Below, one piece after another: positions 2 through 14,916 of a stretch of 64,000 nucleotides of DNA (within the stretch, counting starts at the first letter, position 1; each line of letters starts with the position of its first letter). The stretch is from assembly GCA_949282305.1 (NCBI GenBank), contig CASDPB010000047.1, positions 62,001 to 126,000 on the forward strand. Direction: 5' to 3'. Source of the DNA: an uncultured Lentisphaeria bacterium (lineage in GTDB: Bacteria; Verrucomicrobiota; Lentisphaeria; Victivallales; UBA1829). The notes beneath the pieces were generated by a model. That model was not told the origin of the DNA. It worked only from the letters and a program-made list of their open reading frames with translations, and did no database searches. The position numbers and the translations under genes are program-made.

Positions 2-865
2 CTGTATCTGCGTCTCTCCTCCGCAGGCGTTGCCCTCTTTTTCCTGATCGTTTCCATCTTTTTCGCACAGCTGGACTACATCAATATGTTTACGACGATC
101 ATGTGCGCAATCTGGCTTGGCGGCGCGGGGCCGATCATGGTCTTCGGCCTTTACAGCCGTTTCGGCAACCTCACCGGAGCATGGTGTGCCATTTTCTTCG
201 GCTCCGGATTTTCCATGCTCGGACTGATTTTTCAGCGCAACTGGGCAAAAAGCATCTATCCGCTGCTGGAACAGTGGGGCGCAGTGGAGACCATGAACAG
301 TTTTCTGGAAACAATTTCCGCTCCCTTCCACCCCTGGATCGCCTGGACCATGGATCCGGTAAAATTCCCGATCAACTCCTTTGAGATTTATTTCATCTCC
401 ATGGCACTTTCCGTCGGCGGATATATTGCCGGTTCTTACCTGACTTACAAACCTTACAATCTGGAACGGCTTCTGCATCGCGGCGCATATGCGGACACCC
501 CGGAAGTGCCGGCGGAACCGTGGACGCCAAGAAATATTTTCAGCAAATTGATCGGCATCACGCCGGAATACACCCGCGGCGACAAGATCATCGCCTATTC
601 GGTCTTCGGATATTCGATCATATACCAGATCGGCATCGCATTTTTAATGATCGTCATCTGGAACGCGGTCAGTCCCTGGTCGAAGGAATGGTGGACAATC
701 AAATTCTACATCACATCCCTGCTCATCCCGGGAATCGTCGGAATCATTTCCACGGTCTGGTTCATGATCGGCGGCGCGTATGACACCTATCGTCTTTTTG
801 CCGATCTGGAAAAGCGAAGTGAAAACCCGGAGGATAACGGACAGGTTTTCCAGGATAATCATTGA
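2..865 (+). CDS. Sodium:solute symporter family protein, C-terminal part
   Basis: The reading frame is open from the first bases of the window, so the start lies outside; the visible part is about 288 residues. It holds several hydrophobic segments and the ending typical of SSS-family carriers, a GGAYDTYRLFADLEKR-like stretch shortly before the stop. Family members couple Na+ entry to uptake of sugars or other small solutes across the inner membrane; the substrate cannot be read here. The next gene, a secreted glycan-active protein, starts 53 bases downstream with no terminator between, so co-transcription and a sugar substrate are plausible inferences. Confidence 0.85.
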   Translation: MYLRLSSAGVALFFLIVSIFFAQLDYINMFTTIMCAIWLGGAGPIMVFGLYSRFGNLTGAWCAIFFGSGFSMLGLIFQRNWAKSIYPLLEQWGAVETMNSFLETISAPFHPWIAWTMDPVKFPINSFEIYFISMALSVGGYIAGSYLTYKPYNLERLLHRGAYADTPEVPAEPWTPRNIFSKLIGITPEYTRGDKIIAYSVFGYSIIYQIGIAFLMIVIWNAVSPWSKEWWTIKFYITSLLIPGIVGIISTVWFMIGGAYDTYRLFADLEKRSENPEDNGQVFQDNH

Positions 866-918
866 ATTGAAACGGAATTCATTTCCAAACAAAAACATAA
901 TTAACCACAGGAGGTATT

Positions 919-1728
919 ATGAAGAAAATGTTAACCCTGCTGTCAGTTGCGGCGCTGTCGCTCGGAGCGGCAGAACAAATGCCGCTGCCATCGGGAAAAG
1001 CGGAATTCGCCCCGACAGAAAAAGCATCTGCCGACCAGGTGCAGACGCTGGTTCCCAGAATTGAAGGCAATGCGATCGTCTGCGGCAACAAGAGGCTGGA
1101 TCTGCAGAACAACAGCGGCATGACTCTGACCTGCGACGGCGAGATGCTGGGACGCTTTTTCTACTATTTCACAGGCGAAGACAAAGCAATAAAGAAACCA
1201 TACTGGATTGAATGCGGCCGCTGGTTCGCGGACCAGGAAAAGTCATCTTTCAGGAAATCGGGCAATACGTTTTATGCCGATACTTTCATGAAGATCGGTG
1301 ATTACCCCTCGTGGGAAGCGTGCAAACAGCAGGTCGAACTCCTGCCGGACGGCCTGATCAAAATCGACATTCAATGGACTCCGTCGGAAGATCAGAACCT
1401 GGCTCTGGAAGGGCACTCCCTGTTCTTCATGATGCCCTATAAGACAGGCGGAGGAAAAAGCATCACGCTGAACGGCAAAAAAACAATGCTTCCCACGGAA
1501 GCGGTTTCCGGCATCATCTGCGGAGAATACCGCCCGAAAGAATTCAAAGTCGTTTTTCTGCCGGACGATCCGGGCAAGACTTTTTCCATTACTGCGGTAA
1601 AACCTGATATTGATCTGTTCAATTCATGGGCGATCAAAGACGGTCTGCGCTTCAATTTCGTGGACAATAAGAAGACCCGTCATCTGACGGTTTTTCTCGA
1701 CATCCGGCAGGGCATAAAAAAAAAGTAA
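919..1728 (+). CDS. N-terminal part of a secreted glycan-active protein, closed by an apparent frameshift
   Basis: This 269-residue protein starts at an ATG behind a good AGGAGG-type site and has a signal peptide (MKKMLTLLSVAALSLGAAE). I do not recognise a domain in residues 20-260. The frame stops right after an A9 tract at 1716-1724: codons ATA AAA AAA AAG TAA. The -1 frame is open across this point and continues without a break into the 4925-ending reading frame, which itself has no signal peptide and no ribosome binding site. The two are therefore most likely one gene of about 1,335 codons, joined by -1 slippage on A AAA AAG, or split by a one-base error or mutation. Confidence 0.75.
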   Translation: MKKMLTLLSVAALSLGAAEQMPLPSGKAEFAPTEKASADQVQTLVPRIEGNAIVCGNKRLDLQNNSGMTLTCDGEMLGRFFYYFTGEDKAIKKPYWIECGRWFADQEKSSFRKSGNTFYADTFMKIGDYPSWEACKQQVELLPDGLIKIDIQWTPSEDQNLALEGHSLFFMMPYKTGGGKSITLNGKKTMLPTEAVSGIICGEYRPKEFKVVFLPDDPGKTFSITAVKPDIDLFNSWAIKDGLRFNFVDNKKTRHLTVFLDIRQGIKKK

Positions 1729-4700
1729 CCACGGATACGGCGGCGGGAATTGATTTCAAGGCACTGGAAAATCTCTCCCTGCCGGACCGGTCCTCAAAAA
1801 ACCTGCAGGGAAATCCGTCTTTTGAACAGGGCTTTCATGGCTACCGGAGTGCCCACGTATACGGAACCGGCTATTCTCCCGAAAAATGGCGGACAAAACC
1901 GTATGTGATTGACGAGGGAAATGCCCTGTTCGGAAAATCCTCTCTCAGAATTCACACTCTTTACAAACCGGATACCGATTATCGCGCCCTGACGAATGCG
2001 GGGAATCTCACCGGACCACCCGTCATCGTACCGCCCGGAATCTATACCTGCAGCTTTTATGCGAAAGGAACGCGCGCGGGACAGAGGGTCAATGTCTGGA
2101 TCTCCCACTTTTCCACCGGAAGCATGTATGCCGGACTGGCGCATCTGACCGTCTCACCGGGAAAAGATTGGCGGCGTTATCATTTCACCTTTGAAACGAA
2201 GGTTTCCATGCCGGTCAATCTTAACATCAATGCAGACAGTCCGGACGGGACCGGTTACGTCTGGCTGGACGGTCTCCAGCTTGAATCCGGAAACCAGGCG
2301 ACACCGTTTGAAACAAAACCCGTGGAAGGTCGGCTCTTGACCTCGGCACCCGACAATTTCATCTCCGCAAAAGAAAAAATCAATGCAAAGATGAAACTTG
2401 TCACTATTCCCGGCGCAAAAGGAAAGGCAGTCGTAAAGGTAAAAAATTTCTATAATGAGGAAATCCTGCGGACGGAACTTGCCTTTACCGCAGATCACAC
2501 TGGCAGCGCAGTCATTTCCCTGCCTTTTGATGGAAAACTCGGCAAAGGCATTTTCGTCATCCGTACGGATTATGAACTCGCCGACGGCAGGAAAAGTTTT
2601 GATTTCCACCGTCTGACCGTCTGCGATTTTCTGGAAAACAAACATGCTTTAAAGAACTTCTTCGCTGAAGATTACGGACATTTGGAACAACGTTACAATC
2701 TGCTTGATTACCTCGAACGCTACCGCAAAGTTGGACTCGGCGCCAAAAATCACCTGTTCAACTGGTCGAAAATCGTATCGGACACCTACCGCTCCTACGG
2801 AGTGGAACCCACTGACAGTTCCGTGGGGACATTAATCAGCGATCCCGATACGCGCAAACTGATCGGATTCGGAATTCTGCCGACAGGATCAGTCGGCTAT
2901 GGGAAATTTCCGGAGGATCCGGAATATCTGATCCGCGACTTCAAGCTGGATGCCGGCGGCGTTCTGACGGACGCATATCTCGCAAAACTGACCGAAGCGG
3001 CAAAAACAGTGGCAAAAGCCCACCCGTGGATTAAACTCTGGTGTTTCTATGGAGAAATCAAGGCGAAATTTCCTGACGAATGGTGGAGCAAAGACGCATC
3101 GCCGGAAGCAACGGTAAAGGTATTCGCCCGTCTATTGAAGGCATGTGCGGACGGAGTCAGGCAGGGCAATCCGCAGGCAAAAGTCTATCAGGATGCGCCG
3201 TGCAACATGAATCCCGGCGGGGGCATTGCCGAAACGGAGCTCCTGCTGAAAGAGTGCAACCGCATCGGCGTGAAATTCGATGTCATAGGAATTCACCCCT
3301 ACCGCTTCTCACCGGAAAATCCCGATCTGGATGCCGATATCCGGACTTTCCTTGCCATGCTGGACAGAAACGGATACAAAGACACTCCCGTCTTTTTCCC
3401 GGAAATGATGCACTGGGGAGCCTACAACATCCCCCAGTGGGGAACGGAATCCTCAAGCTGGCAGGGCACTCCGCGGAGCTGGCACAACGGTGCAATCTCT
3501 TACGATATGGGATGGACCGAAAAGCTTTCGGCGGCATGGCGCGCCCGGAGCTGGCTCATGGCACTGAAATACTCGGACCGCATCTTCTCGGTTCAATCCG
3601 GCGCGATGAACAATTTCGACATGGATCTTTACCTGACGCCGTTTGCATCGCAGATCGTCTCCAACACGCTCGGCAACCTGCTCGGCAACTCGCGGTTCAG
3701 AAAAGAAGTGCGGTTCGCTCCGTTCATACGCTGCTACATCTTCGAGGATGAACGGAAACGCCCCGTCGCGGCACTCTGGTGCCATCAGGAGCGGGTTGAT
3801 TCCGGCAAAGTCGACGCTCCCGTTGCGGAAGCGGATTTCGGCGCAGCGCTCGAAGGAGCCTTCGATCTGATGAACCACCCGAGAGCCGTTCCGCAGGGAA
3901 AGATCACATTCCCCGTTACATCCTTTCCGCTTTTCCTCCGAGGAAAACCCGGCACACTTGCGGACATGATCAAAGCGCTCGAAAACGCCTCTCTCGTATC
4001 GGGAGACGGCATCACCCCGGTTCTGGTTTCATCCCGTCCGGTCTCTCCGGCGGAAATGAAAATCACGGTGGAAAATCTCGTTTCCCGTGATCTTGCCGGC
4101 ACCCTGAACGGACACGGCATCACGGTGAAAGGAAGTTCTTCCGGCTCCCTGTCTCTGCCCCTTCCCATTCCGCTGAAAGATACGGAAATCACACATCAGC
4201 AGATCCCTGTTGAATTCAAAACCGGACAATCGCAGTTCAAGGCGGACAGTTCTTTCGACGGATTCTGCTGCCGGAAGGTCAAAGACGGGCTCACGCTTTC
4301 CGAAATCGACTGGGCAAAGCTCCCCGCCGTCACTTTCACGAAGTACACCGGGAAGCAGAAAGAAACAGACGGTTCCTTCCGTATGGCGTGGAATACACAG
4401 GGGCTTTTCCTCGAAGTCAATGTCAAAGACCGGAAGTTCGTGCATGAAGAATATCCCCGCATGGCGGAACGCTGGAACAACGACTGCCTGCAGGTTTACA
4501 TCGACACATTCGCCGATGCACGCTCCAAGCAGAAACAGGGCTATGATGAAAACGATTACGAATACGGAATCTTCCCGAATCACGCGGGAACCTCCGCCTG
4601 CGTATATCGCGCCCATCTTGTAGATCAGCAGCTCGGACTCGGAACCGCGGCGCCGCAGAAAAATACAGTCGCGGAAGATATTCCATCGACATTCACAAGA

Positions 4701-4925
4701 AATGCGGACGGGTACACTTACCGTGTATTCTTCCCTGCAAAATATCTGCTTCCGGCGAGAATGCAGAAAGGTTATGTCATGGGATTCGGGCTTTTCGCGC
4801 CGAATGTCGACGATCCTGCCGCAAAAAAAGAAAAACGCATGACCTCGGCACTGACTCTTGACGAGGACAGCAAAGGCTGCTTCAACCGTCCCCACAAATG
4901 GCCGCTCCTCCTGCTGTGGGAATAA
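1725..4925 (+). CDS. C-terminal part of the secreted protein: CBM-like, clan GH-A-like barrel and CBM9-like domains
   Basis: The frame is open well before its first possible start (GTG at 1905, no ribosome binding site). Codons from 1800 encode NLQGNPSFEQGF, the usual opening of a galactose-binding-like carbohydrate-binding module, which the GTG start would cut off. A beta-sandwich linker follows, then a TIM-barrel-like part with acidic residues at the expected strand ends (LWCFYGEIKAKFP, FDVIGIHPYRF, PVFFPEMMHW). The last 170 residues look like a CBM9-like module (FRMAWNTQGLFLEVNVKD, WNNDCLQVYIDTF). The likely role is extracellular or periplasmic polysaccharide cleavage; family and substrate are not assignable by eye. 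Read as the continuation of the 919 gene. Confidence 0.75.
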   Translation, partial: VTTDTAAGIDFKALENLSLPDRSSKNLQGNPSFEQGFHGYRSAHVYGTGYSPEKWRTKPYVIDEGNALFGKSSLRIHTLYKPDTDYRALTNAGNLTGPPVIVPPGIYTCSFYAKGTRAGQRVNVWISHFSTGSMYAGLAHLTVSPGKDWRRYHFTFETKVSMPVNLNINADSPDGTGYVWLDGLQLESGNQATPFETKPVEGRLLTSAPDNFISAKEKINAKMKLVTIPGAKGKAVVKVKNFYNEEILRTELAFTADHTGSAVISLPFDGKLGKGIFVIRTDYELADGRKSFDFHRLTVCDFLENKHALKNFFAEDYGHLEQRYNLLDYLERYRKVGLGAKNHLFNWSKIVSDTYRSYGVEPTDSSVGTLISDPDTRKLIGFGILPTGSVGYGKFPEDPEYLIRDFKLDAGGVLTDAYLAKLTEAAKTVAKAHPWIKLWCFYGEIKAKFPDEWWSKDASPEATVKVFARLLKACADGVRQGNPQAKVYQDAPCNMNPGGGIAETELLLKECNRIGVKFDVIGIHPYRFSPENPDLDADIRTFLAMLDRNGYKDTPVFFPEMMHWGAYNIPQWGTESSSWQGTPRSWHNGAISYDMGWTEKLSAAWRARSWLMALKYSDRIFSVQSGAMNNFDMDLYLTPFASQIVSNTLGNLLGNSRFRKEVRFAPFIRCYIFEDERKRPVAALWCHQERVDSGKVDAPVAEADFGAALEGAFDLMNHPRAVPQGKITFPVTSFPLFLRGKPGTLADMIKALENASLVSGDGITPVLVSSRPVSPAEMKITVENLVSRDLAGTLNGHGITVKGSSSGSLSLPLPIPLKDTEITHQQIPVEFKTGQSQFKADSSFDGFCCRKVKDGLTLSEIDWAKLPAVTFTKYTGKQKETDGSFRMAWNTQGLFLEVNVKDRKFVHEEYPRMAERWNNDCLQVYIDTFADARSKQKQGYDENDYEYGIFPNHAGTSACVYRAHLVDQQLGLGTAAPQKNTVAEDIPSTFTRNADGYTYRVFFPAKYLLPARMQKGYVMGFGLFAPNVDDPAAKKEKRMTSALTLDEDSKGCFNRPHKWPLLLLWE

Positions 4926-7313: not shown

Positions 7314-8032
7314 CGAAGACAGCTCTCATCACCGGTGCCAGCCGGGGAATCGGCAAAGCGGCGGCGCTGCGTCTGGCAAAGGATGGTTTTGACATCATCG
7401 GCACATGCAGGAGTTCCCTGGAAGCCCTTGAGGAAACCCGGAAGGGAGTCGAGGCATGCGGACGAGTCTTTCAAGGCGCTGTCTTCGATGTTGCCGACCG
7501 TGTCCGGACTTCAGAGAAAATGACGGAACTGTTCGGGGACTCCGCGCCGGACGTCGTTGTCTACAATGCGGGAATCGCGCGTGACAATATGTTCGTCTTC
7601 ATGTCTCCGGAAGAGTGGGACAGCGTGATTCATACCAATCTCGACGGGTTCTATCATACGGTTCAGCCGCTTCTGTTCGGAATGATCGCGCGCCGGAGCG
7701 GACGCATCATTGTCATTACGAGCGCCTCGGGGCAGAGCGGACAGGCGGGGCAGGTCAACTATGCGGCGTCCAAGGCGGGACTTGCCGCGGCAGTCAAATC
7801 CCTGGCGCGTGAAGTCGGGCGCAAGGGCATTCTCGTGAATGCGGTTTCACCGGGCGTGATTGAAACGGACATGACCGCGGAGCTTCCGAAGGAGCAGATT
7901 CTTCCGATGATTCCGCTGAGACGGTTCGGAACACCGGAGGAAGTCGCGGGAGTCATCAGTTTTCTCTGTTCTCCGGACAGCACGTATCTCCACGGACAGG
8001 TGATCGCGGTCAACGGCGGGCTTCTGACATGA
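7310..8032 (+). CDS. SDR-family 3-oxoacyl-ACP reductase (FabG-like)
   Basis: 240-residue short-chain dehydrogenase. Visible signatures are the nucleotide-binding TGASRGIG (residues 8-15), the NAG motif near 86-88, Asn110, the catalytic serine around 138-140, and YxxxK with Tyr151 and Lys155, so the active site is complete. Such enzymes reduce 3-ketoacyl thioesters with NADPH. Overlaps at both ends by ATGA (7310 and 8029) tie it to the lipoprotein and flavoprotein. It is probably not the housekeeping fabG, since no acpP, fabD or fabH lies nearby; pairing with a ketosynthase points to a dedicated acyl or polyene product. Confidence 0.88.
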   Translation: MTKTALITGASRGIGKAAALRLAKDGFDIIGTCRSSLEALEETRKGVEACGRVFQGAVFDVADRVRTSEKMTELFGDSAPDVVVYNAGIARDNMFVFMSPEEWDSVIHTNLDGFYHTVQPLLFGMIARRSGRIIVITSASGQSGQAGQVNYAASKAGLAAAVKSLAREVGRKGILVNAVSPGVIETDMTAELPKEQILPMIPLRRFGTPEEVAGVISFLCSPDSTYLHGQVIAVNGGLLT

Positions 8033-12621: not shown

Positions 12622-14916
12622 ATGAAAATTTTTTTTTCCTCTCTTCTTCTGCTGATGGGTGCGTCGTTGTGCGCACTGGAAATCACTCTGCCTGCGAAAC
12701 CTTTGCCATCCGAAAAAACCGCCGCTCAGGAACTGCGTTCTTACCTGAAACGCACAGTGGACGGCGAGCTGAAAATCGGCGGCAGGGCGATCAACAGGAT
12801 TCTGCTCGGCGATACGCCGGAGACGCGGGCGGCAGGGATCGACGGCAGGGCATTGAAGACCGACGCCTATGTAATCAGGAGTTCCGGCAGTGATCTTTTC
12901 ATTGCAGGCGGCGGACAGTCCGGCACGCTTTATGGCGTCTATGCGTTTCTGGAGAATCAGATCGGGATACGCTGGTGGACTCCGGCGGAGGAGTTCGTGC
13001 CGGAAAAACGCCGTCTGGAGCTTCCGGCCCTGGACATCCGGTTTGAGTTTCCTGCCATTCAGCGCGACATTTACCGTGACCATGCCGTACTGCCGGACGG
13101 AGGAAAATGGGCGGCAAGGAACCGCCTCAACCGTAACGGCGACCTTGGAATATCCACGCTTTACGGCGGCAGTTCCTGCAATTTCGGAGGCCCCTATTTT
13201 GTACATACGTTTAACCTGTATCTTCCGAAGTCACTTGCTGAGGAGCATCCTGAATATTTTGCGGTTTTTCAGGGAAAACGCCAGCCGGGGAAGCTCGGTC
13301 AGCTATGCCTTTCCAATGAAGGAATGCGGCGTGAATTTCTTGCCCGTTTGAAGAAACGGATCCTTGCCGATGAATCCGCGGCGAAAGCAAAGGGTAATCC
13401 GGTTCCCCGGATTTATGACGTCAGCCCCAACGATGTTGGTTTTTCCTGTGAATGCGCGGAGTGCCGGGCACTGAACAGCCAGGAGAAGTCCGATGCCGGG
13501 ACATTGATTGCGTTTGTCAACGGAATGGCGCGGGAGATCGGAAAATTCCGCCCGGATATTCTGATTTCAACCACAGCATACACCAACACGGTCAAGCCGC
13601 CGAAAACGCTTCGCCCGGAAAGCAATGTCCTGATCAGATTCTGTTATACGCCGAAATGCATGGCGATTCCACTGGACACGGCATCCAACAGAGAGTATCT
13701 CGACAACGTCCGGAAATGGAAGGGGCTGTCTCCGGAACTTTATGTGTGGATTTACGGCATTACGTATCAGGTTCATGGATATCCGCTCCCCAATGAACAG
13801 TTTATGGCGAATGATGTCCGGCAATTCTATGAAAACGGAATCCGCTATTTCTTCTTTGAACATGAGGACAGCCATATCGCGGATATGTATGCACTGAAAG
13901 TATGGATGGAGGCGAAGCTGGCGGAGAATCCGGAAGCGGACGGCAGGGCTCTGCTGAAGATTTTCATGGACGGTTATTACGGTCCGGAGGCGGGGGAGTG
14001 GATTCTCAAGGCGCGGCGGATGATCGCGGAGTCCGCCCGTGAAAAGTGCCGTGCAATGGGAATTATGGCGGGAATCAATGCTTTCAATTATCTGACGTTT
14101 GAAGTCGTGGAGGCGTGCCATGGATTTTTTGACAAGGCGGCGGAATGTGCGGCGGGCGATCCCGTAAAATCCCAGCGAGTGGCGGAGGCGCGTCTTTCTC
14201 TTGATCGGTTTACGCTTGCCGCGGTTCAGCGTCTTTACAAGGAATTCCGTGAGTCCAGCGGTGATTCCGCGGAATTTCCGTTCGACCGGAAAAAGATTGC
14301 CGCGCGCATCCGGAAAATCTACCCGGCATACCTGCGTAAACTGAATCCGGCGGTCTTCCGGCAGCATTCGGACGCGATGAACAAAGAGCTGGACGGTCTA
14401 GCGATGCTTCCGATGGAAAGCAGACTGCCCGCCCGTTTCGCAGGTTTGCCGCCGGAAGACGTCTGGGATTTCACTGCCGATAAAATGCAACTGCACAACA
14501 AAAGTCTGAAAGTCGTGAAAGACCCCGCCGCCGAATCCGGCATGGCTGTCAGATTTCTTACTTCGCCCGAGCGGAAAGAAAACCCGTTCAATGCCGGAAT
14601 GTATTTGTACCGGGAAAAGAAAATTCCTGTGAAGCGCAGCATCAGCCCGAAAGAGAATGCCGGAAGCGTGGGACGTTACCAGTGGTATAAGCTTTTTACA
14701 GTGAAGGTTCCGAAAGGGTTCAGCTATATTTACCTGCTTTCCAGGTGGGAAATCCAGATGCCTCTGGTCGATCTCTCAAAAACGATGCTAGGGGCCGAAT
14801 ATGATGTCTATCTGAGTCTGAAATATCAGGGGCCGCTTTACGGCGGAAAAGGCGAAAACGCAGTCTTTGTGGAACGTGTTGTCATGGTCAGGAAACATTC
14901 CATTACACTGAGGTGA
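12622..14916 (+). CDS. Secreted DUF4838 / alpha-glucuronidase-like glycan-active protein
   Basis: 764 residues with a signal peptide (MKIFFSSLLLLMGASLCA). Residues 20-130 resemble the small alpha/beta domain found before GH20 and GH67 catalytic barrels (KTAAQELRSYLKRTVDGEL, SGTLYGVYAFLENQIGIRWW). The following barrel region has the DUF4838 pattern: Cys-rich SPNDVGFSCECAECRAL near 275 and FFFEHEDSHIADMYALKVW near 420. The C-terminal 150 residues look like a beta-sandwich. The family is taken to hydrolyse glycosides but is poorly characterised, so the substrate is unknown. The GH39 gene starts three bases after its stop. Confidence 0.85.
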   Translation: MKIFFSSLLLLMGASLCALEITLPAKPLPSEKTAAQELRSYLKRTVDGELKIGGRAINRILLGDTPETRAAGIDGRALKTDAYVIRSSGSDLFIAGGGQSGTLYGVYAFLENQIGIRWWTPAEEFVPEKRRLELPALDIRFEFPAIQRDIYRDHAVLPDGGKWAARNRLNRNGDLGISTLYGGSSCNFGGPYFVHTFNLYLPKSLAEEHPEYFAVFQGKRQPGKLGQLCLSNEGMRREFLARLKKRILADESAAKAKGNPVPRIYDVSPNDVGFSCECAECRALNSQEKSDAGTLIAFVNGMAREIGKFRPDILISTTAYTNTVKPPKTLRPESNVLIRFCYTPKCMAIPLDTASNREYLDNVRKWKGLSPELYVWIYGITYQVHGYPLPNEQFMANDVRQFYENGIRYFFFEHEDSHIADMYALKVWMEAKLAENPEADGRALLKIFMDGYYGPEAGEWILKARRMIAESAREKCRAMGIMAGINAFNYLTFEVVEACHGFFDKAAECAAGDPVKSQRVAEARLSLDRFTLAAVQRLYKEFRESSGDSAEFPFDRKKIAARIRKIYPAYLRKLNPAVFRQHSDAMNKELDGLAMLPMESRLPARFAGLPPEDVWDFTADKMQLHNKSLKVVKDPAAESGMAVRFLTSPERKENPFNAGMYLYREKKIPVKRSISPKENAGSVGRYQWYKLFTVKVPKGFSYIYLLSRWEIQMPLVDLSKTMLGAEYDVYLSLKYQGPLYGGKGENAVFVERVVMVRKHSITLR

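Follow-up and report, generated by a model that had tools for sequence, protein, structure and literature searches.

Two predicted proteins of the window (the whole stretch of 64,000 nucleotides analysed in this work, from an uncultured Lentisphaeria bacterium) are, judging from their sequences, the two parts of one protein, so that the annotation should read one secreted enzyme at this locus. The homologues carry one gene; here its frame is broken at a run of nine adenines, the coding sequence after the break shows no decay, and the break is specific to this lineage. We consider it fairly probable that the break is a recent one-nucleotide indel, due to replication slippage, in an otherwise functional-looking gene, which would probably be leaky through slippage at the A9 run.

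Two reading frames meeting at an A9 run

The features of the locus are the following:

911..916 (approximate), + strand: Shine-Dalgarno-like AGGAGG-type sequence before ATG 919, read from the sequence.
919..1728, + strand: 5' part (269 aa), with a signal-peptide-like start and an N-terminal beta-rich domain, ending in AAG TAA; homologous to residues ~1-270 of single-frame proteins.
1709..1712, + strand: weak SD-like AGGG, whose distance of 6 nt to the heptamer is unfavourable for a -1 stimulator; read from the sequence.
1716..1724, + strand: A9 run, the frame junction; read from the sequence.
1719..1725, + strand: A AAA AAG heptamer in the zero frame, with the TAA stop next to it; read from the sequence.
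1725..4925, + strand: 3' part in the -1 frame, with a linker, a CBM-like region, a putative (beta/alpha) glycosidase-like region with E444/E560, and a CBM9-like C-terminal domain.
1733..1793, + strand: possible 3' stem ~7 nt after the heptamer, from folding; not distinguishable from background.

The frame opening at ATG 919, which has AGGAGG 5' of the start codon and a signal-peptide-like N-terminus, closes with GGC ATA AAA AAA AAG TAA (stop codon at 1726-1728). The -1 frame, whose GTA lies at 1725, is devoid of stops from 1671 to 4925 (1084 codons). No ATG, GTG or TTG occurs in it between 1671 and 1905; the first start codon is GTG 1905, which is not preceded by any Shine-Dalgarno-like sequence or ribosome-binding site and is located 3' of the NPSFEQGF opening of the 3' part. 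On re-reading the sequence, the frames, the A9 tract and the stop directly after A AAA AAG proved to be exactly as described in an earlier note on this DNA; the same holds for its description of a 3' ORF lacking a signal peptide and a ribosome-binding site, with NPSFEQGF preceding the first start.

A single gene in the related genomes

When 61 genomes were searched with the 269-residue 5' part, a sister genus (four genomes) and a few further members of the order gave matches, which lie at the start of long frames; where the contig is not truncated, these frames (from the same family and order) span ~1,268-1,471 codons and harbor no internal stop. The rest of the same frames is matched by the 1,066-residue 3' part, with an identity of up to 53-54%, and the joined product (...RQGIKKK/VTTDTAAGIDF...) aligns without gaps at the junction with ...RRGVEKKESPDILAGINF... 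and similar homologues. This gap-free alignment with single-frame homologues, together with the rarity of A/T runs of at least nine in coding sequence (see below), indicates that the junction is more than a chance arrangement. The locus was not found in three same-genus genomes at the similarity used, and the window's own genome has no intact second copy, the next paralogue being 34% identical.

The two ORFs lie in different frames, which might in itself suggest two independent genes. However, the 3' ORF has no start before 1905, no ribosome-binding site and no signal peptide, a start at 1905 would lose the conserved GIDF...NPSFEQGF segment, and the homologues have one frame. The single-frame homologues and the absence, in the -1 frame, of a start codon before 1905 and of a ribosome-binding site there led us to reject this explanation, to which we assign practically no probability. 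The proposal of the earlier note that the two halves constitute one secreted protein is thus strongly supported, both halves being in one frame in every homologue compared; the same note had suggested looking for relatives with two independently started genes, and the relatives compared carry one.

The nearest relative (L021) has its single gene directly after genes for a GntR regulator and for a protein with an N-methylation motif (pilin-like). The window's genome has the same two neighbours, with a sodium:solute symporter gene between them and the enzyme. Since these neighbours are common to both genomes, the loci appear to be orthologous, and a single gene would be the ancestral state. The cassette of GntR, N-methylation-motif (pilin/DUF1559-like) gene and enzyme is conserved (window positions 2-4925 with L124:6653-11000, and L021); in L021 the symporter gene is placed further downstream.

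The predicted protein

The joined product, of ~1,335 residues, is predicted to be a secreted, CBM-bearing, glycoside-hydrolase-like protein. The Pfam search retrieved CBM9_1 at the C-terminus (4.6e-10), CBM_4_9 below threshold, and no match for the N-terminal domain; the family profile gave weak matches in the PDB (E 0.001-0.02) to a CBM-cenC protein, an arabinogalactan endo-galactosidase and a xylanase CBM9. Two glutamates of the 3' part, Glu 444 and Glu 560, do not vary among the aligned sequences and are both retained here; they would fit the acid/base and the nucleophile of a clan GH-A-like barrel. The two AlphaFold models have low confidence (mean pLDDT 43 and 38), and the first gives no more than a hint that the junction may follow the last strand of the N-terminal domain.

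Window positions 2019-2310 (residues 99-195 of the 3' part) match, just below the cut-off, NCBIfam NF048003 (phage head spike fiber domain); this segment is probably a CBM-like jelly-roll.

Conservation of the gene and reliability of the sequence

No further stop occurs in the 3.2 kb (1,066 codons) after the break, and the 3' part retains 227 (94%) of 241 family-invariant positions, the values for intact members being 87-100%. On these grounds, an old or decayed pseudogene was rejected.

The A9 or longer runs of the genome gave 80 overlapping matches, nearly all of which were examined with their flanks (three were left out); the genome-wide statistics are based on 0.89 Mb around these runs plus the window. 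Frame breaks were scanned with an ORF-arm method; a codon-bias frame detector was too insensitive. Among the runs examined, only the one at 1716 shows strong coding potential in differing frames on its two sides, and five or more other A9/A10 coding runs stay in one continuous frame. An A10 in contig C112 (L148) was considered as a second break and rejected, as a gene ends there; the esterase-like gene after it is separate and has a ribosome-binding site of its own.

Moreover, the comparison with 0.8 Mb of a same-genus genome revealed no frame change in 70 genes (26,563 aligned residues), most of which have no long runs, so that the comparison bounds the general error and not the error at A9. 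The frame changes suggested by tblastn against this genome corresponded to antisense ORFs, intergenic extensions or one locus (L096/L166) taken as non-coding; after filtering to non-overlapping best ORFs, with L166 excluded by hand, none was left. The 70 genes without a frame change argue against frequent homopolymer errors in the assembly. Systematic assembly error is therefore unlikely; systematic homopolymer error is unsupported by the run scan, by the continuous A9/A10 runs and by the 70-gene comparison.

Avoidance of A/T runs in coding sequence

Coding sequence contains about six times fewer A/T runs of at least nine than synonymous shuffles would give: ~20 are present in gene models (counting nearly all tracts of the genome), and ~26 were expected for the sampled 0.71 Mb of coding sequence, which by extrapolation corresponds to ~130 genome-wide. 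Runs of eight are depleted as well (A8, 12 observed vs 35.8 expected; T8, 4 vs 10), and no depletion was found for A/T runs of seven in coding sequence. This genome, with ~52% GC, avoids A/T runs of at least 8-9 in its genes, and those that remain are therefore sensible places to seek slippage or switching.

According to Baranov et al., avoidance of runs in coding sequence is a sign that such lengths slip (PMC1088944). Mutations concentrate in poly(A) runs (PMC2831843), and the host RNA polymerase of E. coli slips detectably only on runs of 8 or more A's (PMC6260861). Transcription insertions climb exponentially with A-run length and, in transcriptional slippage, outnumber deletions (PMC5574713); this insertion bias is in the direction that would join the two frames. 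A point against the explanation favoured below is that one study of Buchnera found no transcription error that restored the frame (PMC5574713).

Other homopolymers of the same genome were observed in genes for secreted proteins. A T9 at 12629-12637 of the window lies at codons 3-5 of a signal-peptide-bearing protein (MKIFFSSLLLL; 12622-14913), the frame of which is intact; such homopolymers at the 5' end have been discussed in connection with phase variation. A second secreted-protein gene (L149:8672-11020) has a T9 in its signal-peptide codons (MIFKFFFLLLP), near the start, and a large secreted CBM-type protein of 1,228 aa (L119) has an in-frame A10 at 7666, in a probable inter-domain linker.

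The slippery heptamer and its surroundings

A slippery heptamer of the X XXY YYZ type lies in the zero frame at the overlap (A AAA AAG, 1719-1725). Neither A9 nor a frame break is present at the junction in any of the 15 homologues aligned there, the closest of which have A6-A7 at this position; the break is thus a lineage-specific lesion rather than a conserved recoding site. Three close homologues harbor A AAA AAG or A AAA AAA in register in an unbroken frame, and the heptamer may thus exist at the junction merely because Lys-Lys is encoded.

In E. coli dnaX, an SD-like element is spaced ~10 nt from the heptamer. No 5' SD-like stimulator was found here at about that distance, the sole candidate being AGGG at 1709-1712, 6 nt from the heptamer. 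The stem that can form 7 nt 3' of the heptamer has an energy of -23 kcal/mol (z -1.6), and structures as stable were obtained in 16 of 200 shuffles and in 182 of 1,598 window segments.

Origin of the frame break

In the scenario we favour, DNA polymerase slippage at 1716-1724 would have changed the length of the A run by one nucleotide and broken the frame, a recent event in the lineage or in only some members of the population sampled. As the sequence is written, translation from the 919 start would end at 1726, and the product released would be the secreted N-terminal domain; full-length protein would probably still arise in minor amount, when RNA polymerase adds an A on A9 and/or ribosomes slip -1 on A AAA AAG. 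The gene combines nine A's at the indel with an otherwise intact sequence, as do slippage-rescued frameshifts, and from the literature transcriptional slippage at A9 would be expected to give some full-length protein. We infer that the allele is real and recent and that its rescue is leaky. Of the causes listed in the earlier note, the best fit is a slip of one nucleotide in the A run, whether this is a real allele or a single-site error; the dnaX-like programmed -1 site is disfavoured, being absent from the homologues and having neither a well-placed 5' Shine-Dalgarno sequence nor a remarkable 3' stem.

Behind the recent slip we place, from more to less probable, a single-site error, a phase-variable switch and programmed recoding. 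If the sequence or the assembly were in error, the real genome would have one unbroken frame and the run length would have been miscalled or would come from a minority variant; the undecayed gene and the unbroken frame of every homologue compared agree with this, and singleton homopolymer frameshifts are often errors (PMC3711429), the GeneTack authors expecting those validated by BLASTp to be mostly sequencing errors (PMC3711429). The at least five continuous A9/A10 coding runs and the lack of frame changes in the 70 genes point the other way, and we regard such an error as rather unlikely. A phase-variable (contingency) switch, in which slipped-strand mispairing would flip the run length and turn the enzyme on or off in subpopulations, might be invoked for an otherwise intact gene with an A9 in a secreted carbohydrate-binding protein, a class where such switches are common (PMC3711429). 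Yet A9 is absent from all the homologues compared, and runs of such length are selected against in this genome, not enriched; we consider a switch improbable.

A programmed -1 ribosomal frameshift (dnaX-like) or programmed transcriptional slippage would yield the short secreted domain together with the full-length enzyme. The heptamer in the right register with the stop directly next, an A9 of the length used in Thermus dnaX slippage (PMC1088944) and the stem speak for it, but the break is shared by no homologue compared, the heptamer of the three unbroken relatives is no marker of a break, AGGG is too close when compared with E. coli dnaX, and the stem is not significant; we consider this origin very improbable. 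It is likewise doubtful that A9 is a maintained expression switch, slippage- or phase-based, setting the ratio of the short secreted beta-domain to the full-length polysaccharide-active enzyme; if the break is maintained, it would represent A-run recoding in a secreted polysaccharide enzyme outside the endosymbionts.

Comparison with known systems

The A AAA AAG/A9 motif is shared with dnaX, which uses ribosomal slippage in E. coli and transcriptional slippage in Thermus, and the position of the zero-frame stop, immediately 3' of the site, recalls the reversed arrangement proposed for some bacteria (PMC5009743); unlike dnaX, the site is devoid of conservation among homologues, of a well-placed SD and of a significant stem. 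Poly(A) contingency loci such as Listeria inlA (PMC2831843) are similar in that a frameshift of reversible type affects a poly(A) run in the gene of a secreted/surface protein, but the inlA run is at the 5' end, whereas the present one lies ~800 nt into the gene. The insect endosymbionts Blochmannia and Buchnera provide comparable cases of slippage-rescued frameshifts (PMC3017870, citing Tamas 2008 and Wernegreen 2010): like the present locus, these genes combine a single indel in a long A run, an otherwise intact coding sequence and an expected partial rescue by transcriptional slippage. Those genomes are AT-rich and reduced, and some of their breaks are conserved across populations; here, in contrast, the genome has ~52% GC, the break is found in one genome only, and rescue is predicted.
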